Source: Siphonodentalium dalli (taxonomy: Eukaryota; Mollusca; Scaphopoda; Gadilida; Siphonodentaliidae). Taken from it: DNA of 64,000 nucleotides. Made by a program: the position numbers and the translations under genes. Shown one piece after another: positions 9,401 through 57,535 of the stretch; position 1 is the first letter of the stretch, and each line of letters opens with the position of its first letter. A model generated the notes under the pieces. It was not told where the DNA came from. It did not search any database and saw only the letters and a list, made by a program, of their open reading frames with translations. The stretch spans positions 133,689,282 to 133,753,281 of the forward strand of contig CP136062.1 of NCBI GenBank assembly GCA_032622095.1. The letters are read 5' to 3'.

Positions 9401-12400
9401 GGGGGTTACCTTGGACAGGACATAGCTCCTTATCCAAAATGCAAGAGCATTTGTCTTGCGTCGAACAATTTCAGAGTAGGTCTCTTCCACAGTCTGGTAT
9501 CCCAACTTGATGCAGCCAATTATGTTGCTGGCATCGCCCCTGACATGCTTCTCTGCATCACATGGCGTCGGCAGGTTTGACGACGATGAGCAAGAATCGC
9601 GGGTCGACAGTGGGTCCCCAGGCACACTGTCGGACGAGGATTCTTTTAAGAGAGAGAAGAAAGAATAAAGAATAAATAAAAAGGAGAAAAAGAATGGAGG
9701 ATGTTCTGGGTGGGGAAGACTTGTTGTTGAGTGCCTCCAAGAGCTGCACCAGCCAACCAGCCTTCTGACTCTTCCCCACGATGCAGTGGCCCACATCTCC
9801 ACGAGAGTGGGTCCAGTCGATCCCCTGGAATCGTAATACCTTCCGGATACCTCCGGGCCTGCTCCTCCGCCGGTCATTTTGCAACTTCGATCATTCTGCT
9901 AAATTTTATCATTTTGAAATGTACCCGAAACTTGTCATGTGCGCCATCATTGATCACTGATGCTTCTATGCCTGTTCATCAAGTCCTCAGTGGTGTTCTC
10001 TACTCTCTATATATACTGGTATGCAATGATACCTTGGATAATGATTGCGTTCCCTGCTCTCTACATTATACGAGGCTGGAGTAGGGCTTTGTAGCATGAT
10101 ATAATCATACATCATACATCGCTATGATATCTGCGGCATATCATTTTATATCTGGTTTGTGTATCACAGGGAGCAAATTACTTTTGCAATTTTGATTAGC
10201 AAATAATCTCACATTGACATGATTAGATAGCATGTTATAACATCATATAAATATAAAAATTCCTAGCTATTATCCACCTTTCAGTAGCAAATTGTGATGC
10301 GATACCAGTAACTTTGCTCCCTGGTGTATCATACGCATCCTGATATCTTATGACATACACAATGGCTACATGTGACATCAGTTCAATATGTGAACTGTCG
10401 AGAGAGCGAAGAAGATGACAAAGAAAATAGGATGAAGCGACGGAAGAAGTGACGGGAAAGAAGTCTCTTCACAAGTTATACTTGCTCGGTTGTCTCACAA
10501 GCATGAATTATATGGCACTACCTGGGATGTTTCTTCCAAAAACAAGGGGGGGTCCACGTTTGAGCAATGTCGGAATCTGAATTGGGAGCTCTTTCACGTA
10601 ACATAATCATATCCGATTCATGACTAAATCACATTTACATGAAATCTGTTTCAGAAGAGTGCATTCCCATCGAATTTGGATATTAATTAACTTTATTGCT
10701 CGTGCCTCCTCCTGGGCTTGCATTCTAATCCATATAGTTCAGTTGAAGGGCTTTCCTTGGCGGAAAAATATAATTTTTAAAATTAAAATTAGTTTTTCCT
10801 TAAGGGAAGCCCGAAACTGAACTATCATAGATCCCTCCCATGGTGGTGCCATTCCCAACCCCGCGACTCGCAAATCTCATGATTAAGTCGGAAATAAAAA
10901 CTGGCTAGATAATAGATAGAATGCGTGGTTTACCTGGGCATATTCATGTGTGACTAATCTGAACACGGGTGTGAGTGGGGTCGGCACAGCAATAAAATTT
11001 TAACCCTCCTGATTGACACAAGGCCGGAGACGCAATCCATATAGTTCAGTTTTGGGCTTCCCTTAAGGAAAAACTAATTTTAATTAAAAAAATTATATAT
11101 CATGTTCACATGTCCGTCTCATAACCTTCATAGCAAAGTAGTTTTTATGGGAAAAGCAACCATAACCATCTTAGTAAAATTGACTGCTATTCAGTTCTAT
11201 TTAGACTAATCAATGTTGGAATTTATATATACAAAAATAATACCTCCCTTCCGGGCCTGACTGATTTTGAATAAAAAAAACTGTCTGTGAAACAAAATAA
11301 ACGTTTTTGCAGGCTTAGCATCTTCTTTCTTTAAGAGGGAAATAATATTAAGGGCCTTTAACTAGACATTAACCCTTTCTATACAAAATGGATTCTCCCA
11401 TACAGTTATAAAATTATGTAATGGAATGGTCTATTATTCATTAGAAGGGATGTTCTCGTAATAAAAGAAGATGACAGGCAGACAAAAAAATAAAAGTACA
11501 GATGAATTCATATTCATTGGTGCGAAATGTTCAAATAATAAGTTCAATAAAACCTTGAACTTATTATCTGATCATTCCTAAGGGAGCTACTCATCACAGT
11601 ATTTAGGCCATTAAAAATTAATGTCTGGGTTCACGGGCAATTATGTCTAAATTTTGTGATGAGGGAGGGAGGCTATTTATATTTATTATTTATTTTAAAT
11701 TCTTCAAAACATACCTCAAAATCAAATAATCTTTTTTCATGATTCCAGGTAATACAACTTGTCTCTGTGTAATCACATGTATAGCTCAATACTTGGGGAT
11801 ATTCTGACACAGCTTAATAAGCATCGCAAATTTTTCCAAACATACATCGAATATACGCAATAAACTACACACCATGTGACCGGAACAAGAACGGTATTAT
11901 CTCCCCGCATTATATTAAGAGTATAGTTTCTGGGGCGAAATACGGTAAAACCGGATATATTTTGTTCGTGTTCAATTTTTTTTTTTTTTAATATTTTGCG
12001 ATAAATAGTTTTGATGCGGCGGACTGTTAGTGATGCGGGCGGGGCCCGTGAACCCAGACATTAATTTTTAATGGCCTTAGTGTAGAAAGGTTACATTTGG
12101 GAATAACCCATCTGTTCGTCTTTGATGGATGTCGGTTTACATAAATTCCTACCTGCAGAAATTTGGTCTCAACTAATTGTTACGATATTAATTCTTTCTA
12201 TACTAAATACGCATTGATGAGTAGTTCCATAACAAATTATCATAGGCCATTTATTGAACTTATTTTCTGAAACTTTCCCACCAATGAATAGGAATTCTTC
12301 TGCACTTGTATTAGCTGTTTAACTGTTTGTCGTCTGCTTATAATTCCTGAGCATCCTTTCTGATGAATAATAGACCATTCCAATGTAGTCTTTTGTAACT

Positions 12401-15400
12401 GATGAGAAAATCCATTACTGAAGAAAGGGTTAAGTGATGGCTATTATATATTTATACAAATCTGATATATATAAATAAGGGCTATACTATTGTCACGGCA
12501 TTAAATAAAATAGCATAAATTAAATTTAAATGTTTGTTATTGTAATCATGTGATGTGGAACTCTTTAACATGAGAGATCTATTAAAATCAGCCCCACTTG
12601 TACAATGGGCAATGTTGGGCGATGAGAACCTTTTCAGATTCTTTCATCATTTTATTTTGAACAGGTAGTCAACTTCCAATTCGCTGGTGGAAAAACTGCT
12701 TCACTGACAATGATAGCATTCACAGAACAAATTTGCTCAAGACAAGTCAAAGTGTATGGCACAATGGTAAGAATTCTTAAACTATTTCATGATTTGTACC
12801 CTTCAGTAATGCCCTAAATAATCGACTCCTTAACCACAGCAGAATTATGGGTAACTTTCCAGGATTTAGTCGGAAATATGGCTTGCTGCCGTTCATCGGA
12901 AAGCTCTCACAGAACTTTCTGATGAATGGTAACAAGCCATATTTCTGACTAAATCCTGAAAAGTTACCCATACTTCTGCTGAGGTTAAGGAGTCGATTAT
13001 TTAGGGCATCACTGTGTATGTAGAATTTGGGTATTCCCGTCAAAGATACGTTACACACTGAACTACATGGTATATTCATCTTTATTCACAAGAAAGGATT
13101 CTATGAGATCCGTTTAAAATTTATTATTTTGGTACGAAATAGCTTAAGTACCTTTTGAATCATTATTATTATGACGTAGCAGGTCAAGGTCATTTGTCCA
13201 CTCGTTATGTATATAAGCAAGTGGACCCACAGTAATCGGCCTCTTTTTCTCTTGTGACAAGATTCGAAGGGAAGTAAAAACTAACGCTATGAGAAATGAA
13301 ACCACATATTATTGTCGGCTTCATTTAACAATTCCGTTCCACATTTTTTAACTTGTTGTGACATCGGTTCCATTTTGGAAACGACACAATAATTATTAAA
13401 TTAATATCAGAGTGACAATTTCATTCAATTTCCCTGTTTTATTTGTTTTAACGCAAATAAAATACAAAAACTATATTGTTCTGTTGAAAATTGTGGGTAA
13501 TTTCCCAACTTCCGGTTTCGGAACACGTGGTTTAGAATTCGGAATTAATTTCGGAATTGCACTTCGTCTGTTTATATGCAGCGGTTCACGTGTTGAACTT
13601 TCTGGGACAATGCCTATACAGCACAGTTGTTATGTTATCTCTGTTTCTTGTGGTTTTAGAATGTAAGTATTAGAACATTCAACCAGTGAGACAACATTGG
13701 TTTATAACTTTGTTTATGTTGAAATTGGCACGTGACAACATTCGTTTTGTTTACGTCGAAATTCTGAAATTGTCACTCACAAATCTGTTTCATGTTGACA
13801 TATGTAGCAAAATTAGGGATCAGGTTTGGGTCCCTTTTCGTTTATCTATGAATTAACTCACTTGTGTGGTTTTGCTTGGCTCATAGTTCACTATGAAATA
13901 ATTTACAATACATTGAGATTGTTTGCCAACAAAATAATTTTTTTGTCAGATCAATATGACACAATTTCACAAATAATAATGTGACGCATCAGTCACCTAC
14001 TTTCATGGTAAATTTTTGGGTCCCTTTCCTGATCCTTCTACATGTAACTGGTCATACCACAGGCTATTTTCTTCCTCGTGTGGCCTCGGTTTCAGTAACC
14101 CCATTGTCAAGCAGGTTCAGGCTAATCCAATTCCTCGTTCCATGCGGACCTTGAGGTGGCCCAGCCGCATACTTCACCATTGAATTCACTGTAGCCAGAC
14201 GCCATACTGTTCCGAGGGTGGGTTCCAGTGTTCACGGATCCGACCATGCTCGCCCGCTCCTGCTGGTTCCTACCTCAGATTTCGTCCTCCCACATCCCTT
14301 TCACAAGCATGTGCGATGTACAAAATCTGTCAGCCCCCTAGGGAGCAACTTAACTGGTATCGCATCCCAATTTGCCATCCAACCTTGGATAATAGCCATG
14401 CAATTTGGTATGAATTTTATGTCAACTTTGAGATTGAGAACAAAATACTATCTCATCATGTCCATGTGAGGCTATTTATTTGATAATCAAAATTTCCAAG
14501 TAAGTTGCTCCCTGGCGTCTACCCTCGGGTGGAATTGCTGTTAAGACCATTTCCCGGGACTCTGCTTGACCTTCAAATGCTTGCTATTTGGCGGGAGGCG
14601 AGTTGTACCAGTGTAGCCACTGGGGCGGTAGCGTTTCATAGTCACTGTCTTGGGGGGTGATACACGAATCGAGTAATATCTCAGATCTTGGGCTCGTGTC
14701 ATCTAAAAGTTTCGGTTCATTCTATGTATATTTGACTGCTCTGCCCATTCAACATGTAGTTCAATGCAGATTGTGTGCATTTAGAAACACTAGTGTGGTG
14801 TCGTCCTGTTGGTCCGGTTTTTGGATTCGTGTCTTGACCTAGTAGGTCGCCGCTGCCCTACTGGCTACACTGTATGATTCTGCTTCCTGTCAGGGTTTCA
14901 GCTGGCTCCGGTTAGGGGGGAATCAGTCTTCTCATTAATCACTCCTCGATGTCTCTTCCAAGGCTTACACAGTCCTGTTTATTCAGTTTTTTACTCTAAA
15001 GATAACAAAATCCATTGCTTGGATCTGACGATTCCACATTTAGATTACATTTCTAATTAACAGGGCTACTTGCCATCCAACGCGAATCCTGATTCTCACT
15101 TTGGATTTCGAAGAGCTCTTGCTGATTTTTCTTGTCTGTCACAAAGAACTAAGTTAAATGCAAGGCATCGAGGGGTTGCAGACGCAGTTTCTCTCCTCGG
15201 ATATGGGTCCTGGGGCCACCAGACAGCGCGCCGTCTAATGCCGGGTAATCTCGGGTGCTGTCTATAACAGTGAACATAGCGCAGTCATCGGTCGGGGCAG
15301 AGACTTTTAACAGACACTCAATTTGTTTTTTCATGCGGTTTTACCTGGGCTCAAACTTATTACCTTTCCACCTGTCACTGATTAGCATTGTCCTTTGTTT

Positions 15401-18400
15401 ATGGGTGACCGTTCGATTCTTCTAGGGGTAAATGTACACAGATCATCTTTCACCCTTACTACGGTACCATGGGGCATAACACCAAGCCTTGGATTCCTTC
15501 TAAGATTTTTGCGAGCATCACTCGGGCCTTCTGCGGTGTTGGGCTGGGTTTTTCTGCGAACCAAGTTGGGAATCATATTTCTCTTTGCGTAGAACATTCA
15601 TCATCTTTTGACTCTACAGCCTTAGGACAATCCCAATGAGCTTTCCCTGTAGTACCAGGATTAGATCTATTCTCGCTCAATATTATCACTTTACAGTTTG
15701 GGTTCGCTTATCGGGTTACGATATAGACAATTGAACTCACGCCAATCTTCTGGGGTGGCGGGTACTGTAGGTAATAACCTGTTCCATGGGAACAGGTGCA
15801 TTTCAGAACTTTGAGCCCTGCGTCATGCCAACAAAACTCTTTGATGCCCTGCTTGATTGAGTTGGGCGTTACTGTACTCAGTGCTCCTTTTTTGACAGGC
15901 TGTCTTGAATTACTACACAACAGACGAGCTATTCGTCTAACGGCGCACATGAGGCAATCATTGTTGGCGATGGAGTCTCTGCCCACGGGGAGGAACTAGG
16001 GTCCGGGTCCTCGCTGTATGAGCGGCAGACAACCGTCCGACCATGCACACATGTGATTGGTCTTCAGTAAAATGTGCCCTTCTGTTCACATTACTGGTGT
16101 ACCTCCTTGACCACATGTCGAATGGGTGTACAGTGGTGCTCGGGGTGTTTGGCCACGGCACAGTTGTGGGTGGTTTTTCGGGATTTGGTCGGTGGTGTGG
16201 CTTGTTGCTGTTCATCGGGGGGCTCTCGACGAGAGCTTTCCGATGGGTGGCGGCGGGCCGTGTTTTCGGTTGGGTCCTGGAGAGTTGCCCGTGGTTCTGC
16301 TGTGGTTGGGTGGTCGGTTGCTTTGGGCATTGCTGTGTACTTTCGCCTTGGTGGATGAGGTGAGCTACACACAGCTCATGGACCCGGGCCCTTCGTCTGT
16401 TAAGAACAATCAGTGAATAACAAGAAGATACAATCTTCTTGTTATCGACATTCTGGTTGTTTTTAGACCTTAATCATCCATGGCCTGTTCTTTCTTTCAG
16501 ATTGTTTGGAGTAGTTCCATCACGATGGGTCTCCTCCTTCTACACATTTTCTAATAAGTTACATGCAGACTGCAAAGTATTCCTTTCAATCATGTGTACA
16601 TGTAACTGCATACACTATTGGATTGACAGGCTGTGGAAGTAGTTTACAACTCAGGACTCTCCGAACTTTTTCTTCTCGATTGTTTCGATACCAGAAAACA
16701 TTTGGGACTTTCCAAGTCATTTGACCGACGGAATATGGCCTCTGTCTGGTGTATTTATTAACTGAAGTAAAATACTGTCATTTGACAGTCAGTCAGAAAA
16801 TACTTATTTTGCGCCTTGATCAGTTTGTCGATTTGGGGTTGCACATTTACTGACAGTCGGTCGCAGACCTTACAAGCATGATGCAGTGGCTATTTAACTC
16901 TGGGTTTTCTTCACCATACATGAGTTGGTGGTATGTTTCTAATCGTCTGTACAGTTGCTACTTCCTCGTGTTACATACAGATTGACCATTCAGGTAACAA
17001 TAGATTTCCTTCCTCTGGTGTCGAAACGTCGGGATATCTTGGTTCGTTCAGTCACAAACCATGGAGCTGGGTGACCTATGCTTTCTGCATATAACCCGCT
17101 TACTCCAGGGAGGAGGTGGCACATGCATGTACCTGCATATGAGATTTCACAATTACCGGTTTGTCTGACTTCAGAACCAAAGGGGGGGGGGGGGGAGGTG
17201 CAGAGTTTCAGCCATTGGGCTTATTCTCCCACTTTCTCCACTCTACCTGGTAGCATCAATAAAATCTGCAAATCAGTACCTTTTGATCCATTTGTTGCTA
17301 AAAAACTCAGCAGGTTCAAAAGAATTATTCTCAACTAAAATACAATAGTATCTCATTCCTCGCAGCCTCCTCCTATGAGTTGATTCTACCATGTAGTTCA
17401 GTGTGTAACGTATCTTTGACGGGAATATAACATTTTCAATAGAAAATACATATTCCCTAATAAGATACTTACACACTGAACTCACATGTCCCTCCCAAAT
17501 TGGGATTTTCCCTCCCCGCAGCTCGGTCACACCCCTCGAATCTTGTAAGAGGATAAAAAGAGGCCGATTACTGTGGGTCCACTTGCTTATATACATAACG
17601 AGTGGACAAATGACCTTGACCTGCTACGTCATAATAATAATGATTCAAAAGGTACTTAAGCTATTTCGTACCAAAATAATAAATTTTAAACGGATCTCAT
17701 AGAATCCTTTCTTGTGAATAAAGATGAATATACCATGTAGTTCAGTGTGTAAGTATCTTATTAGGGAATATGTATTTTCTATTGAAAATGTTATTTTCAA
17801 ATTGCAAAGGTCTTAGTAGTACAGTATTAGTACAAAGTTGTCAGTGAGAGGACCATGCTTTGATATCAACATCATTAGTATGGAATATAATCAGTGGGGG
17901 AAACAAGCAATTTTGTACATGCTTGATCAGTATAGTAATCAGAGACCCAGTTATCTCATTCAAGGAACAACTTGACTATTGCATCTTTGACAGGAATTTC
18001 CAGCATGACATTTACTAATACCAGAACTAACAGCCCAAATATGTCTTATATTCTTTGTTTATTTGATATTTGATTTTTGCTTCAGGGTGAATTAGAGATC
18101 TCTGATGGCTATAGTGTGAAGGTCACAGATTTCAGAGATGGAGATATTGGTTAGTATTGCCACCAATGAGGTCTGGGAGAGGTTGCTAGAGGGTCTCAGC
18201 TGCACCAGCCCCCCACCCCTCACACTTGAATCAGACAAAAAATTCCAAATCTGGGAAATTTGCATCCCTGCAGCTTGGGATGGAATCTTCCGCCTGGTAT
18301 CTCAAGCTCTCCAACTGTTGTAAATGTTCACCCTTTCGGCCCCCTATGGTTGGAATGGCCATTTCATAAAAAAAAAAATTGACAAAAAGTACTGGCAAGT

Positions 18401-27400: not shown

Positions 27401-30400
27401 AAAGGTGGCTATAGTAACAATGGAGGTGACGTTCATGGATTGAACTTATCTGACTGAACAGTGTAGAATAAATGCAGAACACAACTTGCATCCTAATCTC
27501 GAATCTTTTATCGATCTCGTTGCGGAAGGCGCAAAGTTATATTTCGCTCGAGCTGCGATCTCGCGAAATATGTCCTTGCGCCATCCGCAACTCATTCGAT
27601 AAAAGATTCTCAATTAAGATGCGCGTTGTATTCTGTCTATATATTGCTAAAACGGTAGACAAATGAAATCACACTCATAAGACGAACACTCACTGGACGG
27701 TGAAGACAAAACATTGGTGCTTCAACAATGAGACTAATTTTCGTGGCCAGAATGTTCATTGTTTTTTTGCTGGTCTTTAATTACAGACACATCGCAATTA
27801 CCACTACCATCCAATGCATTGCAAAGGGGCAGGGGGATAGAGAAAATCATGAAAAGTTTATTTTATGCCCCCCCCCCACCCCCTGTAATGAAGTTATTGG
27901 AGGTATACTGGAATCAGTTTGTCTGTCCATCTGGTGGTCCAACTGTCCATGAACGCAACTTTGTCTGATCTTGTATTCCTTCATTTTTCAGTCAATTGTT
28001 TTGAATCTTGGCACATATATTCAGTACCAAGGGAACATTATGGGGTCTGTCTGACTTTTTTTCAACTTAGAAATATTTGCAACCTTTTAATTGTGTTCAA
28101 GCTTGTGTTGGTCATATTCGAGCGTGCAGGCTGTAGCCAGCTAGGCATTCACAGTAGAAAGCTGTAGGCCATCCACAGCTACAGCCAGCTAGGCACGCAC
28201 AGTAGAAAGTTACAGCAAGCCACAGCTGGTGGTCACTAAATATCATACCAGTAGGCTGTAACCCTGAGCTTGGAATGTGGTTGATAGATATATCGACAGA
28301 ATGCCATATCTATACACCAATGGTCATGCTCACTGAAGCAATCACGTTTGAAGCAATGAATTTTCATTAAGCAACCTTTGGCAATATTTTGGGTTTGGTC
28401 AGGTACCCCGGCCATTTTATATGGACACTTGCATTGTCAAATTGTTTACCAGTTGCGAAAAGGGTCATATATATGGTCACATATCCTACTCATTTATATA
28501 TCAGATTTATGGAGGCATGAACTCAGTACGAATGTTCATTGCTTCAAATGTTCTTGCTTCAGTGAGCTTGACCATTGGTGGATAGATATGGCAACATTAT
28601 CAACCACATTCCAAGATCAGGGTAGCGGTAAGATATTTAGTGACCACCAGCTGTAGCTTTCTACTGCACATGCCAAGCTGGCTGTAGACGATGCCAGCAT
28701 ACAGCTTTCTACTGCGCATGTCTAGCCGGCTACAGCTGGCTACAGCCTGCGTGCTCAAATATGTCCATTACTTGAATTATTAGTCATAGTTTTTTAATCT
28801 TGGCACAATTATTGACGATCCTAGGAACCTGTGCACCGGCAATTATGAGATCCATCCAAGCTTTTTATATGCCTGTTTGAAATAATGGTCGTATTATGTA
28901 ATCAGCCTGTCCCACCATCCTTCTGAACGTCTGTCCGCCATCAGTTAACACTTTTGGTTTTCGACTGATAACTCCAGTTTGGATTATTTGAGTCGTGATT
29001 TGTATTTCTCAGCCAAAAATACAGACCAAGTTAAAATTTGGGTTCCGTCCAATTATTATACAGCCTTTTTAAAAATGGGACATATTACATTTCGCTTCTG
29101 TCGGTCCATCCGTTCATAATTCGTTTCTTGGCGATAACTTTACTTCTACTGAATTAATGGAATGAAATGTGATATGTATGTTCACTATTTCAAATACTTT
29201 TCAGTTCTAACATAGCTCTATCAGGTGGAAGAAGTTTATTTACAGACATTGACTCTGTCATGGTCCGTCTTTGTATTGAAAATGGTCAATTTGAGTTAAA
29301 AATTTGGTAAAATTAAGTGTTTTGTGTGTGCAAACCAAGGGGCATAACGCAGTAATTTTTTATGAAGAAGCTAAAGTACAGACATTTGATTACACCTACA
29401 ATATCAAATAGAGCATACTTGATGGTACCCAGGCCAAAGATAATGGTTCAACATAGATTTGAAGTACAGTGTTGACCAAAATTGCTGGAAATTATGTGTT
29501 GCTGCCTTAAAGGGACTTTCAACCTCGATAAATTAGTAAAAATCTACTGAAATGTGTTATCTTTCCTATCTTCGTGTGTGAGTTACACAGTTTTGTATTG
29601 ATAAGTTTTGAGCTCTGAATTACTACCATTTGCTAGTACAGTAATGCCCAAAGTAATTGACCACTTAACCACAGCAGAATTATGGGTAATTTTTCAGGAT
29701 TTAGTCGGAAATATGGCTTGTTGCCATTCATTGGAAAGCTCTCGCCGAGAGCTTTCCGACTAAATCCTGAAAAATTACCCATAATTCTGCTGTGGTTAAG
29801 TGGTCAATTACTTTGGGCATTACTATACAGTATTTGTCTGAAGCTATAAATACTATGGATTTCAGCTTGGGGAGTGGGGAGGTGATGTGATTATATATGC
29901 ATCAGTTACTCCCTACGATTCGGGTGAAGTTTTGTGTTATTGTGTGTTACATAAAAATTACCTTCATTTAACAAAACGTGTTTCCACGCAATCATTTCCA
30001 CAATGAAATTCCTTGGATACCTGGTACGAAAAGCCATATTGGTTATTATTTGGTTGTGTTTCCGAATGACCGAGTAATGTCAAAACAAATACTAGAGAGG
30101 GGGGACAATTGGCTACTGATGTATCACGAACAGCGTATGTGCACCAGCACAATAAAGATATGTTATAAATAATTATATAGTGTGGATTTCAACTTGACAA
30201 GCCATTGAATGCACACCGATAGGGCAAAATTCAAATTCAAGGTAGGATGTTAAAAACATGGTTTACCTTGGGGGGGGGTGATTATATTTGCATGATTTAT
30301 TTCCTATGATTCGTTTGGGTACCATGTTTCAATTTGCCACAAGGTGGGTATGCAGCACTGCTGCACCACATGTGGTGCAACGTCTTGTTTGTATGACAAG

Positions 30401-35677: not shown

Positions 35678-35869
35678 AAAAAGGTTTTACAAGCAGTGGT
35701 ACTAGGTTGTTTGATACTTGTCAAAGATGATATTGAGAACTACTGGACAATGGATATAAAATCTTGATCTGATTCCTAAAATCCTTTTAATTATCCGTTT
35801 AGCTGGCAAGCCCCGGTGCCCTCGGCACATTGCCTGCCTACGCAGTTCAATGTGTCAACTGCCACTGCT

Positions 35870-36282
35870 TCCACTCCAGGGGATTTGACCGCACAGGTTC
35901 TGACCTGTCCTCCATTCGTCAACGTCTTTTCCGGCATCTGTCCCTCCCGGTTTTGGGGTGGGTATGTATCCCTATTATTCACCTGTGTTCTTTCCTCCAC
36001 CAGTGTGGCTTTGCTTTGTACAGTTTCTGGCCTCTTTTGGGCTCCTAGGCCAGAACTTAGACTTAGTTTCCTTTCCGAGGCTCCGGAATTTCTGGCCTCA
36101 TCAAACCAGGTGACCTGGTCGGGATACTTGCCCCTTTCCCCCCATCTCCGGGACGGACGGCGCTGTTCAGAGACGAGGACGTGCTGTCGCAACATCTCCT
36201 GGATTTGGCAGCGTTTGATGCGTGTCTCGAGTTCGCCATGCCCATCCGAGAGTGCCTTCCCTGAGGGTCATTTCGGATGGGT
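35870..36282 (+). mobile_element. DIRS-type gag-like fragment (fossil), inverted relative to its neighbour
   Basis: This stretch aligns, reverse-complemented and clearly diverged, with the start of the gag-like region of the minus-strand element (about 40600-41030). Shared blocks include CGTCTTTTCCGGC, GTTTTGGGG, AGAGACGAGGACGTGCT and TCGGATGGGTC. It is a leftover of a second element of the same family, broken; the similarity fades after about 36282. The long ORFs at 35791-36304 belong to this fossil and are not host genes. Confidence 0.7.
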
Positions 36283-36548
36283 CAGTCCTTCGGTCTTAGG
36301 ATAACAATTGCGCACAATTTTGCATGCATTACCAGCACGATACTAACAGCACAGAAAAAGGAAGAACAAACAGCGCCATTCTCTTGCTTCCTCCATTCAC
36401 ATGGAGCCTCCGCTGGAGTCGGTTGCGGGACATGCCTCCTCCTTATTGGTCGCGGCCTCCCGAGCCATCAGCAGAGAAGTACGCCTGTCTTCCACAACCG
36501 AAGGACTGCATGGGGCCCACATATCAAGAACAAAAACCAACGTGTGAC

Positions 36549-36904: not shown

Positions 36905-39900
36905 TCATTGAGACCTTTTAATTATCAATAAATGAATAGGAGATGGGTAGTGGGAGGGAAGCTGAGTTTTGGAGAGAAAACCAGGATGAGGAAGCAGGTC
37001 AGCTTCGAGGGCTGAAATTCGTAGACAACCCGGGGATGTTGATAGGGCATGAATCTCACTAACCCGACGCGCCGAAGCAAATGTAAGGAGAAATACTGTT
37101 TTTAAAGTCAAATTTACAAACGAGCATGTAGTATTTAAGGGGTTCGAAGGGAGGACCCTGTAAAAACGTGAGGACAAGACCGAGATTCCACTGTGGAGAC
37201 AACAATCTGGTACGTGGCCGGGACAGGGCACAACCAGCCAGGAGATCAGAAAGGGCTTGGCAAGTTGGCATGACCCAATCCAGTGAATGCCACGATGTTT
37301 GAAGGTATTGGATAACATGGACCGATAACCCTTGATGGCAATGACCGAGAGACCTTTGTGCTCGAATAAAAACAAAAAGAAGTCAGCCAAACGGCGGCGA
37401 GATGGAGACCTAAAGTCATAATGGTGATCCAAACACCACTGTACATACACGGACCACTGGTAGCGGGCGATAGTGGATCTGGTCTGGAAGAAATTATTCG
37501 AGCAGCAACTCGTCTTGAGAAACCGCGGCGCTAGAGGCCCGACCGGACAAAAGACAACCGTGTCGGCGGAGGTCTGGTCGCGGGTGATAAATGGGGGGGG
37601 GGGCGACCTTGGCTGAGAAGGTCCGAGGTGAGAGGGAGAGGAACCGGAGGGGCCCGAAGGAGGTGGGGAAGCTGGTTGGTCCAAGACCGACGAGGGTCCA
37701 ATGGGCAAACCATGAGGATCGTGCAAGGGGTGCAGCGAATCTTTTCCAGGACACTGGGAATAATGGCTGACGGAGGGAATGCATACCCGTAGAGATTGCA
37801 CCACGACAGAGATAGGGCGTCCACCCCTATCGCCAGAGGATCCGGACAAGGTGACACATAGCGAGGTAACTGGTGATTGAACCGAGTGACAAATAGGTCA
37901 GAGAGGGGCACCCCCACTGAGCACATAGTGCCTGAAATACTGATGGTTGGAGAGCCCATTCGGTTCCCACCGGAGCCTTCCCGCGCGACAATCGATCGGC
38001 CAGGACATTCAGACGGCCCTGAATGTGACGAACCGACAGGTGAATCTGTTGAGAGAGACAAAGATGGAACACCCGTTGGGTGAGTGAGCAGAGTTGAGGG
38101 GACCGGGTGCCCCCCAGATGTCGAAGGTAACTCACCACAGTGGTGTTGTCCGTGAGAATCAGAACAGACTTCCGTCTGAGATGTACCAGCCAGTGAATCA
38201 AGGACAGTAGAACGGCCAACAGTTCTTTGGTATTGATGTGTTCGGAACGTATTGAAGGATCCCAGGTGCCTTCCACCGTGAGGTGAGAAGGAAGGAGAAC
38301 ACCCCCACCCGTGAGAGCTGGCATCTGTTGCCAAGGTCAGCTCGGGCGGGGGAGAGACCAGAGGAATCCCCGATATTAACCAAGGGAAATCGGACCAAAT
38401 CAGAACAAACCTGCGGAGAGGAGGAACACGCTGGCTGAGGGGGTCGGTTGCATGACACCACCGACTCCGGAGATAGTACTGGAGGGGTCGGATAAACAAT
38501 CGACCGCACACAATGAGTTCCGCTGCTGAATTGACCATGCCCAGAAAACTGAGAAATTTTCGGGCCGACACCTCCGTTTTGGCAGACATGAACAATGCCT
38601 GAGTGTGCATGAGATTCTGCGCGCAAAATAGGAAGACCCGATTGAGATTCGTTTGAAAATGCATCCCAAGGTGAATGAAATCCTGGGATGGGATCAGAGA
38701 CGATTTTTTCCAGTTGACCAGAAACCCCAGGTGTAACAGAAGTCTGTCGAGGAACGAGTCCCGCTCTTGAGCCAAGAGCAGGGGGTCTAATTGAGTCAAA
38801 TATAGGTCGTCTAGGTACCCGATCGAGGTCACCTGCGACCATGTTCGGAAATGGGCCATAACCGCGTCCATAACCCGAACGAAGGCCCACGGACTGAAGT
38901 TTAGTCCGAAAGCGAAGGTCCGGAATTGGTAGACTATATATACCTCTGTAGCTGAAACGGATGTATCGACGAGAGGCGGGATGGAGCAAAATGTGAAAGT
39001 ACGCATCCTGTAAATCTATGCTGATTCCGAAACTCATTGGAAGGGTCAAGGGGCGAACAGTCTCTGGTGTGTCCATAGTGAAGTGCGGGGGATCTATGAA
39101 CTGATTGAGATTGGAGAGATCGATCACAGGTCTGAATTTTCCGGGACCCTTTGTTACCAGAAAAAGACGAGAGTAAAACCCCGGCGAAGAGGGGTCGTGA
39201 ACTATTTCCACAGCCTGCTTGTGTAATAACGTCTGAATTTCTAAATCCAACTGACGAGCTGCCTGCAATCTAGCGGAACCGCTGTTGGGATAGGACTCGA
39301 TGTGAGGGGAGGAGATGACTGAAACGTGACTTGCAATCCCTCCCTGATGGTGGCCGGAGCCACAGATCCTGATGGAAAAGACGAGTCACTCGGGAGCAAA
39401 TAAAGCTAGACGGCCGCCGACTGGATGAAGAACAGACTGTGAACGTCAAAAGCGACGTGCATTGCGGGAACCCCGACGACCCCCCGGCGAGCGAAAATAC
39501 TGTGAAGGCCTCGAACTCTGACTAGAACGACCCTGAGGATGATGTGAAGAATCCACAAGCGATTGTACATTCTGTACAATCTGCTGGGCATTGGATCGGA
39601 GCTGTTGTTCCCGATCTGCCCGAGGGATCCGCATAGGCTGAGAGGTGGCCGGAAAAGGCAATCCTGACGTCAAATCACCGGAGGTAAATTGAGGTTGGGA
39701 AGAACCCGATTGAGACTTCTTAGGCGGAAAGCTGTGACCAGAGGAAGTAGATTTTTTCTTGGCCTGAAAAGTCACCTTAGACCCGGGTCGCTTTCGACTG
39801 GAGGACGTGTTCTGAGACTTAAGCAGGGGAGCCTCTTGGGCCATCATGTCTCTAGTCTCGGCAACCTTATTATTAAATACAGCAGAACCACCGAGTGGTT

Positions 39901-41030
39901 GACCCATGAGATAATCTTTGTGATGAGGCGCCATCGATGCGCCCCTGAGGGAGGTATGGCGGAATAACAGGTCAAGATTAGTGGAAAGTGCGGTAACGGT
40001 GGACATGGCATGTCCGATGCTGCGATACAGGATCTTTGTGAGATCCGCGACATCTGTGGAGGATGAAGGGCTAGCCTGCCTATCCGCCATATAGAGTGCT
40101 GAAGTAGTTAAGTCTGCGAACGAGAGGACTTTTAATGTCTTTCTGTGGAGTTTTTGAACAGCCTCGAACTGATTCCGGGAGAGAAATATGGAGCCAGGGT
40201 CTGTAGCCCCGATACTGGACGCGTCGCGATCCAGTAACGGACCATGTTCCAGATCCACCGGGTTCAGGGTGGTATCGTAGGTGCGGCCAGAATAGCCCAG
40301 TAATTTTTCTGAAGGAGGCAACAGTAAGCCACTCTGCTGAGGTCCCCGGCACCTGAAAACACTGCCGCCACAGCTGCATTGTAATGATCATTCCATGATT
40401 TAATCTGAAGGGACTGAGGCAACTTCAGCTGAGAGACAGGATCCGGAGGAACGTCAGTTAGGATGTCGATACTAGACGAAACGCCTTGGCGAGTCGGGGG
40501 CGGAGGAGGCGGACACAAATCAGTTGGTAACAATTTATAGATGAGGGCCAACGAATCCTTATAGTCGCGGGTCAAAGGCCCAGCAATCGACGACCCATCC
40601 GAGAGTGACCCCACTTGTGAAGCACTCTCGGACGAGCAAGGATAACCCGGGTCAGCATCGAATGCTTCGCAATCCAGGGGGTGTATTGAGAGCACGTCCT
40701 CGTCTCTATTGGGCGTCGTCCGTCGAGGCGATGGAGCATGAGGAGGGCAAGCATCCCGGCTAGGCGGCCTGCTAGAACGAGGAACGAATTCCGGTGCCTC
40801 GGGGTTTAAGTTAGAAGCCTGTATTGGTTCTGGCTGAGGAGCCGAAGAAGGCCAGGAACCATAAGGCCAAGGCCACATCGGGGGGGGGGGGGGTGGCGCA
40901 AATGCAGGAGAATAGCCGGGATACGTACTGGCCCGCCCCAAAACCTGGAGGGACAGAAGCCGGAAAAGACCCGACGAATTGAGGACAGGTCATGGCCCGT
41001 GCGGTCGAGCCGCCTGGACTGGAGGCTTTA
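36905..41030 (-). mobile_element. DIRS-like retroelement 3 (coding fossil), minus strand
   Basis: Parts in order on the minus strand: gag-like region (about 41030-39446), reverse transcriptase (about 39268-38350, with IDLQDAYFHI), RNase H (about 38350-37990, with TDASSHGWG and NTKELLAV), and a tyrosine-recombinase-type region (about 37600-36930, with ARYQWSVYVQW). Order and flavour are those of DIRS-type tyrosine-recombinase retrotransposons; overlapping frames are usual in that family. The copy is broken in a handful of places but still easily read, so it is of moderate age. No inverted terminal repeats or internal complementary region are seen at its borders. Confidence 0.85.
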
Positions 41031-55320: not shown

Positions 55321-57535
55321 TATTATTATTATTTTTTTTATTTTTTTTTTGTCGTTTCATGATATTAAAAGAAAAAAATTATTTACAGCTGTCAGTGTCT
55401 ATTTCTCAGTATTGTTGCGACGTTTTCTTTTGGCCATTATGGACTGCATCAATGATGATGAGAGCTGTGACTTGAATGTTTTGTTGTCTTCAATTATGCT
55501 TGTGGAGGGTGGTAACAGGTTAAATTCTGCTATGGTACGAGGATAGAATGAATAGAAATAGGAATCTTTATTAGCTCTGAGGGTGTGGAATGTTAGTTTA
55601 TTTTTCTTGCTGTATCTGCATGGTACGGACAGTTTTGTATTTTAATATGTCAGCTGGGTATATAGATAGTTGCCATTAGTTGGTGATGTACAATTTTATG
55701 GAAGACTGTTAGCCTGGTTTGTAGGCGGCGTTCTTGTAATGGTTGCCAATTTAGGGTCTGTAGCATATCAGTTACTGAGCTGATGTTATGGAAGCTGTTC
55801 ATGACATACCTTGCAGCTCTCCTTTGGACTGCCTCAATTTGTTTAATTTCTTTATCTGTATGTGGGTCCAGATTGATTTACAGTAATCTAGGATGGGTCT
55901 TACGAGAGATTGATATGCCCTCTCTTTGATTGTTCGGTTGGTGACCATTAAGTTTCGCTTGAGGAAGCCAAGAATTCGGTTTGCTTTGCCCGTGATGTTA
56001 TCGATATGTTCGTCCCACTTGAGATCATGCTGGATTGTTATACCCAAATATTTGGCAGAATTTATTTTTTCAAGTGGATGGCTATTTAGATTGTAGTTGT
56101 TTCGTATTGGTTCTTCTTTTCTGCTAATGGTAAGTAGGTTATATTTACTTGGGTGGCATGCCATTAGCCAATCTCTCTCCCAACGTGCTGAATTATTGAG
56201 ATTGTGTTGCAATTTAACTGTGTCAGAGTGGTCATGAATCCTACGGTAAATAATGCTGTCGTCAGCAAACAGTCTTAGAGAGCTATGTTTCAGATAAGTG
56301 TGGAAGTCGTTGATATCGAGCAGGAAGAGTATAGGGCCAAGTACAGAGACCTGGGGAACCCCAGAGGTTACTGGAATATGACAGGAAGAGTGTCCTTCGA
56401 GAACTACAGATTGGGTCGTACCATGTAGGAAACTGGAGATCCAATCACAGACTTGAGAGTTAATGCCGTAATAATTTAACTTGTAGATGAGGCGTGGGTG
56501 ATGAACATTGTCAAATGCTTTTGCAAAGTCCATTATGATTATGTCGGTTTGTATGGATTTATTATCATTTTCAGAGATTTCTTGTAGAAAGTCAATAAGT
56601 TGGGTTTCGCAGGAACATTTTCGTCGGAAGCCATGTTGTTTATTGTAGAGAATATTATTTGTTTCAAGGAAAGTCATTGTTTTGCTACTGATGATGTGTT
56701 CAAGGATTTTGCATGAGATGCAGGTGAGGGATATTGGGCGGTAGTTAATGGGGTCATGTTTGTTGCCCTTTTTGAAGATGGGGCTGACATTTGTGGTCTT
56801 CCAGTCTAGGGGGACTGTTCCAGTTGTCAGAGAAAGATTATATATGTGGGTCAGAATTAGGGCTATTGTGTTACTGAGATATTTTATAATGTGACCGTGT
56901 ATATACCATCGGGTCCCATAGCTTTCAAGTTGTGGGGGTCTATGTCGGCAAGAAGTTTCTCAACCCCGTTTTCAGTGATGGATATATCGTTCATGGTCAG
57001 GTAAGGACTTGTGCCTTTATCTGGGATGATGGTTGAGTCTAATTCTGTAGAGAAGGCCTTTTGAAACTGCTTGTTGAGTAACTCTGCTTTTTGGATTGGG
57101 TCGTACACCATTGTCCCAATTTTTTCGAGTGGTGGGATGTTTTGTGAGTCTGCCCTCTGGGATTTGATGTAAGAAAATTGTTTCTTGGGGTTTGACTTCT
57201 TTGTGTGTTCAAATGGTGTTTCTGGGCTTGGAACTGGGAGGTCGAGGATTTAGTTGTTTATATAGTCCCAATATAATTTCCTGGTTTCTCTCTGTACTTC
57301 TGATCTTAGTTTGTTGTACCGAGCTGTGTGTTTCTGATGTTTGAAAATTTTCTTAAGTTTTATCATCTTGCTTCTCAACTTTTGGTTGACCCAGGGCAAT
57401 TTATGTTGTTTCTTGATTGTTTTGCATGGGACATGTTTCTCGCATGATTTTAATAGATGCTCTTTAAAGGAGGACCAGATTTCATTGACATCTTTGTTTG
57501 TTTTTGATGCAAATCTCCACAGCAAAAGTTACAGA
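55321..57535 (-). pseudogene. LINE (CR1/L2/Jockey-like), 5'-truncated, broken RT
   Basis: On the minus strand, a linker region (57525-57250) and RT entry (57111-56884, LLADIDPHNLKAMGPDGIY) lead to the RT core (56677-55799): GFRRKCSCETQLIDFLQEIS, MDFAKAFDNVHH, TSGVPQVSVLGPILFL, RLFADDSIIYR, SAKYLGITIQHDLKWDEHI. The catalytic FADD is kept; the usual GVPQGS reads GVPQVS. Three open pieces are separated by frame breaks or stops, and the endonuclease is missing. The C-terminal tail continues to about 55400, and the A/T-rich tail lies at 55321-55352. Confidence 0.9.

Follow-up and report, generated by a model that had tools for sequence, protein, structure and literature searches.

A palindromic MITE at 16131-16337 (copy E; + strand, 207 nt) of the 64-kb window, by which we mean the whole stretch of DNA analysed, has had roughly three quarters of its adenines replaced by guanine on the + strand and in both arms, with a clear dependence on the 5' neighbour and with limits that coincide with those of the hairpin, and it lies inside an element with DIRS1-type ends. 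We consider it highly probable that ADAR hyperedited the MITE hairpin in the sense RNA of this DIRS-type element and that integration of the cDNA then made the edits permanent in the genome. RNA edits are ordinarily lost along with the RNA; a complete footprint of ADAR type in genomic DNA would demonstrate that such editing can enter the genome and would mark the strand that served as the RNA template. The preliminary description of this DNA had proposed the same route, an ADAR footprint passed to DNA via a DIRS-like element, and had named three findings that would speak against it: a GC-rich ancestral state, T-to-C changes as frequent as A-to-G and an excess running on into the flanks. None of these was found and the interpretation is supported, on an evidence base of three MITE copies, one copy of the host element and one 64-kb window.

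The three palindromic copies, 191-215 nt long as delimited, show the traits of a MITE in being short, non-coding and multicopy and in having inverted repeats. Two of them are unedited sisters, neither assigned to a strand: copy A at 12804-13018 (palindrome 12804-13014, with 89% self-complementarity across 211 nt) and copy B at 29639-29829, the subtype nearest to copy E. Copy A lies just to the left of the DIRS-type element in which copy E sits, ending about 15 nt outside the boundary at 13033, and the hairpin of copy B is asymmetric because about 24 nt are gone from one arm. As candidate target-site duplications, copy E has TGTA on either side and the flanks of copy B fit TA, with no clear one at copy A. 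Two open frames traverse the edited copy, one of 171 aa at 15958-16473 (-) and one of 113 aa at 16022-16360 (+); both probably owe their existence solely to the loss of stop codons through the base changes. An 18-mer of the MITE had no match in viral_contigs, and its five matches in genome_contigs were rejected as relatives: the similarity around the match spans just 18-31 nt, and about seven matches would be expected by chance when both strands of 257 billion bases are counted. A 19-mer from the edited copy and a 24-mer from the terminal repeat of the host element likewise each had zero matches in viral_contigs.

The element being a palindrome, either arm predicts its partner, and the arms can be tested against each other without any other copy. 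Across 94 aligned positions, those of copy E show 43 matches, 48 G·T oppositions, no A·C opposition and three transversions (p=7e-15), the G of the G·T lying in the first arm at 23 positions and in the second at 25. In the control arms, G·T, A·C and transversions number 4, 5 and 2 among 105 positions of copy A and 2, 0 and 5 among 88 of copy B, so that the earlier claim of G placed opposite T where the other copies pair A:T is confirmed. The folded RNAs tell the same story: copy E forms 12 A:U, 36 C:G and 40 G·U pairs, against 56, 38 and 4 in copy A and 50, 33 and 0 in copy B. The A:U and G·U pairs of copy E sum to 52, near the A:U count of the unedited copies, and the C:G pairs are about equally numerous; the simplest reading of these counts is that A became G opposite U and the C:G pairs were spared. 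Such a change, turning A:U into G·U and keeping C:G, leaves good folding to the + strand RNA of copy E only, and the predicted energies show this asymmetry, at -113.1 kcal/mol (z -10.3) for the + RNA and -41.1 kcal/mol (z -2.6) for the - RNA; copy B folds equally on both strands (-141.5 and -141.9 kcal/mol).

Comparison with an ancestor gives the direction of the changes. Taking a B-type palindromic sequence as ancestor and comparing 205 aligned bases, we count 56 substitutions in copy E: 47 A>G, four C>T, two A>T and one each of G>A, G>C and T>C. Guanine has replaced 47 of the 61 As, while just one of the 62 Ts has become C (p=7e-21), and the ratio of changed to unchanged As is 21:6 in one half of the palindrome and 26:6 in the other. 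A>G aside, copies B and E are near-matching, as in GGTCAATTACTTTGGGC versus GGTCGGTTGCTTTGGGC. Against the same ancestor, control copy A differs by 26 substitutions in a symmetric spectrum (A>G 4, T>C 6, C>T 5, G>A 4 and seven transversions). The result does not hinge on the ancestor chosen: raw alignments of copy E against four sister-copy orientations, which took in about 11 flanking bases per side, gave 42-50 A>G, 1-6 T>C and 6-10 C>T, and a consensus of the four orientations used as ancestor gave A>G at 46 of 61 As. With that consensus, C>T outnumbers G>A by six to zero (p=0.026), part of the C>T calls sitting at tied columns; with the B-type ancestor the figures are four and one (p=0.19), an excess that is left without explanation. 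The preliminary description had put the A-to-G changes of the + strand at about 40, in both arms and as the main difference, and the T-to-C changes at about two; the pattern stands, with about 47 of the former and, with the better, B-type ancestor, one of the latter.

The choice among adenines follows the neighbouring base. Under the B-type ancestor, the fraction changed is 13/13 after T, 20/24 after A, 10/15 after C and 4/9 after G, and the ratio of G to A outcomes is 33:3 after A or T and 14:9 after C or G (Fisher p=0.007, the two A>T omitted); with the consensus ancestor the ratios are 33:2 and 13:11 (p=0.0008). The 5' preference with G disfavoured that characterizes an ADAR footprint is thus present in copy E. 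The order also agrees with what is given for the enzyme in a passage of PMC8586724, where ADAR prefers 5' A, U or C over G, and with the depletion of G upstream of edited A that part of PMC5625713 describes for metazoan hyperediting. No AA or TA is left in copy E, and its 13 remaining As are preceded by C (6) or G (7), as had been reported; that none follows A or T comes about since the neighbours of unchanged As have themselves been changed. A run of five As in the ancestor has been altered alternately, from GAAAAATTA to GGAGAGTTG (GAGAG), and such alternation is expected if an edited 5' neighbour acts like G. On the 3' side the trend is not clear (A 19/23, T 15/20, C 6/7, G 7/11); the preference stated in the relevant section of PMC5625713 is for A in invertebrates and amphibians and for G in mammals and reptiles.

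The effect ends at the MITE ends, as the preliminary description had claimed, and within the window it is singular. The AA- and TA-free run at 16130-16337 (208 nt) is the longest in the 64 kb, the runner-up having 105 nt, and stops at most 2 bases from the hairpin ends; the longest such run in 200 Markov-1 simulations of 64 kb was 109. The excess does not enter the flanks: the 200 nt to the left contain 8 AA and 7 TA (15) and an equal length to the right has 9 of each (18), and a short imperfect hairpin beside copy E (16401-16465, +), which serves as an unedited comparison, retains both AA and TA. Among 2,126 folded tiles of 240 nt, with a mean of 8.7 G·U pairs per tile (sd 4.4), the highest counts belong to the + tiles starting at 16081 and 16141, with 46 and 40, followed by a minus-strand tile at 541 with 34, whose fold is weak. 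Among the best 30 of 93 inverted pairs, the two that involve copy E are the most one-sided, with mismatches of 44:2 and 31:1 and 8 and 0 transversions; next come pairs with 12:32, 21:44 and 33:14, carrying 86, 65 and 54 transversions. The pairing of copy E with itself is absent from these BLAST inverted pairs, the arm-versus-arm test having been done separately. One further segment of the host element, 14461-14900 (+), was considered as edited and rejected, as it is rich in G·U yet keeps its AA and TA; it may carry a milder or older trace of editing. The segment has a strong fold, -145.6 kcal/mol over 440 nt.

The element around copy E occupies 13033-17797 (+), with bounds accurate to a few bases. 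Its left inverted terminal repeat lies at 13033-13271 and its right one, together with a right extension (~17771-17797), at 17532-17797. The inverted match is exact over 198 nt (13051-13248 against 17555-17752) and holds in 232 of 241 alignment columns overall; all mismatches fall outside the exact block, and the duplex formed by the terminal repeats is unedited. Two adjoining internal complementary regions (ICRs) at 17387-17482, just inside the right repeat, are complementary to the two termini, 17387-17427 to the left end (41 nt exact) and 17427-17482 to the right end (56 nt exact). Matching NTT termini and a 3-bp circular junction are traits of DIRS1-like elements; here the exact matches share one base only, 17427, and at the chosen bounds the termini read ATT on the left and TTT on the right. 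Inverted terminal repeats, an extension on the right and, near the 3' end, a pair of ICRs are the features that, in the description given in PMC3266345, mark DIRS1-like retrotransposons, and the host element shares them all. In contrast to the elements described there, it has no recognised GAG, RT/RH/MT or YR domain, and it bears the MITE. Since the same account places the ICRs at the 3' end, and since here they lie near the right end, + is likely the sense strand, in agreement with the orientation proposed before. Base composition weakly supports this: the AT skew of the host (-0.146) is similar to that of a coding element elsewhere in the window whose ORFs reveal its sense strand (the second DIRS, -0.174), and the GC skews, -0.033 and -0.159, are unlike.

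A Pfam search of the whole host element in six frames found no coding domain, nor did searches of 13300-16130 in six frames and of 16338-18300 in the three + frames; the sensitivity of Pfam is low here, one of four tested ORFs of the coding second DIRS being recognised. Queried by tblastn with six overlapping ORFs of that element, the host gave nothing at E<=1, and it has no stop-free frame of at least 120 aa save the one through the edited MITE. Judged by its sequence, we describe the host as an element with DIRS1-type ends and not as a full member of the group, ORFs for GAG, RT/RH/MT and the tyrosine recombinase not being recognised, and of the earlier statement that the surrounding element is DIRS-like, the part concerning the end structure holds and a coding part was not found. 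The 198 identical bases of the terminal repeats suggest a young insertion, and the lack of coding is therefore probably not due to decay after insertion; we infer a non-autonomous element that moved recently.

An RNA edit can persist in a DNA element only if the RNA is copied into DNA, and a DIRS host provides that step, its terminal repeats and ICRs implying an RNA stage in the element's cycle. Under the favoured explanation, the palindromic MITE would first have inserted, as DNA, into the DIRS1-type retrotransposon. Sense (+) transcription would then have let the MITE fold back into a duplex of about 80-100 bp, in which ADAR, to which the chemistry and the base context point, would have deaminated about three quarters of the adenosines to inosine, sparing about one in two where the 5' neighbour was G and about one in three where it was C. 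A reverse transcriptase, presumably supplied in trans by an autonomous relative, would have read I as G, and integration of the cDNA, probably by a tyrosine recombinase, would have fixed the edits in the genome. The ceiling for ADAR editing in one round is generally near 50-60%; the 77% of copy E, with 47 of 61 As edited, is high for a single round and may reflect one heavy round or several.

Two properties of DIRS transcripts bear on this explanation. The sense RNA of DIRS-1, as outlined in a portion of PMC5633606, is missing most of the right terminal repeat together with a short piece of the left one; a similar RNA here would miss most of the right repeat, which would account, after the fact, for the unedited terminal-repeat duplex. 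For its part, the MITE hairpin, whose loop is a few bases long, can fold immediately. DIRS-1 is also transcribed antisense, according to the same portion of PMC5633606, and the + strand of the edits is therefore informative only together with the orientation of the ICRs.

Among the other explanations, it is possible, though in our judgement unlikely, that hyperediting of the MITE took place in an ordinary host transcript, part of which entered the DIRS element when the reverse transcriptase switched templates. The editing evidence fits such a history equally, as ADAR and reverse transcription are still required, and the interior of the element, without a recognised coding domain, may be captured material. 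However, the history needs one extra step, an unsystematic look around the MITE revealed no edge of a captured segment, and the TGTA on both sides, a candidate target-site duplication, gives the impression that the MITE was inserted there as DNA. We hold it to be very improbable that the MITE lay in an RNA:DNA hybrid (R-loop) whose DNA strand was edited by ADAR, without any reverse transcription. ADARs are reported to deaminate deoxyadenosine in RNA:DNA hybrids, and the base change and its context would be identical; nevertheless, a hybrid has no evident cause to start and stop at the MITE ends, and the change does. It is barely credible that the changes arose when the hairpin was copied by an error-prone DNA polymerase, such as one resembling polymerase eta. 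Enzymes of this type favour A>G at AA and TA, contexts overlapping with those of copy E, but their error rates are far below the change seen, G has replaced A at 33 of 37 WA sites with one A>T and no A>C there, the arms changed about equally and the ends are sharp. There is next to no chance that the G-rich copy is ancestral and the others lost G by deamination, or that ordinary divergence or gene conversion made the difference: we found no point in favour, the A versus B-type comparison is symmetric (above), and where copy E has G·U, in both arms, copies A and B have A:U and form near-perfect palindromes, so that, starting from a G-rich ancestor, G>A would have to have happened in parallel dozens of times, each time restoring the pairing by chance.

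Returning to editing of a sense DIRS-type RNA, several known systems come close. One is from Xenopus tropicalis, where the most edited repeat in RNA, in the survey data presented in PMC5625713, is a palindromic DNA repeat (Harbinger) of about 200 bp; like copy E, it is a palindrome of similar size that folds back and carries clustered edits with G depleted upstream, but its edits sit in RNA reads against an unedited genome, whereas those of copy E sit in DNA (the same passages of PMC5625713). ADAR-linked A-to-G hyperediting of the avian retroviruses RAV-1 and avian leukosis virus (as cited in PMC8586724) resembles our case in having ADAR-type clusters in an element that replicates via RNA and reverse transcription; judging from that brief citation, these are viral sequences, and copy E is the cargo hairpin of a genomic transposon. 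APOBEC editing of retrotransposons likewise leaves clustered changes of one type in genomic DNA as a product of the retroelement life cycle, although the enrichment reported in the pertinent part of a large trace survey is of G-to-A, unlike the A>G of copy E (PMC2873906). The survey also tallied A-to-G/T-to-C clusters in genomic traces (in human retroelements, for instance, 129 against 247), their origin from ADAR not being settled in that part of the text (PMC2873906). The copying of edited RNA back to DNA is itself part of a model of deaminase-driven reverse-transcriptase mutagenesis, which, going by the abstracts of PMC11817618 and PMC5704389, covers cancer genomes and antibody genes and not transposons as with copy E.

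The chemistry of the enzyme and the type of element are thus known; among the matches listed from open-access full text we noticed no report of their combination and place, nor of an ADAR footprint that had become fixed in a genome within a transposon. A review states that the RNA-based replication of DIRS elements is experimentally not fully proven (PMC5633606), and the edited MITE bears on this proposal. Our confidence is evenly divided on a wider reading, in which ADAR would, in this lineage, mutate retrotransposons heritably, as an A-to-G analogue of APOBEC hypermutation, with DIRS elements bearing palindromic MITEs recording its action; the 77% would then have built up over several rounds in which the element was transcribed, edited and re-integrated, and the scar would be direct sequence evidence of a DIRS sense RNA. 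Hairpin arms that oppose G to T, and never A to C, offer a handle to search for further scars of this kind.

The window holds several other elements. The second DIRS, at ~36905-40989 (-), has overlapping ORFs and a match to RVT_1 (E 2.9e-7) within 37531-39015; we take it to be a DIRS from the layout of its ORFs and its sequence, judged by eye. No clear pair of terminal repeats was found around it, and it is therefore unusable as an orientation control for the ICRs. A fragment resembling its first ORF lies in the opposite orientation at 35780-36304 (+), the similarity being 67% across 30 aa at 36133-36222. Searched with Pfam, the segment 57500-62000 gave a single match, TNFR_16_TM, under the curated cut-off. 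A reverse transcriptase that looks LINE-like by eye is encoded at 55799-56959 (-; RVT_1, E 6.3e-28). Finally, 11369-12433 forms an imperfect palindrome of 1.1 kb that is 61% self-complementary, and its mismatch types, 77:53 with 212 transversions, are not strongly one-sided.
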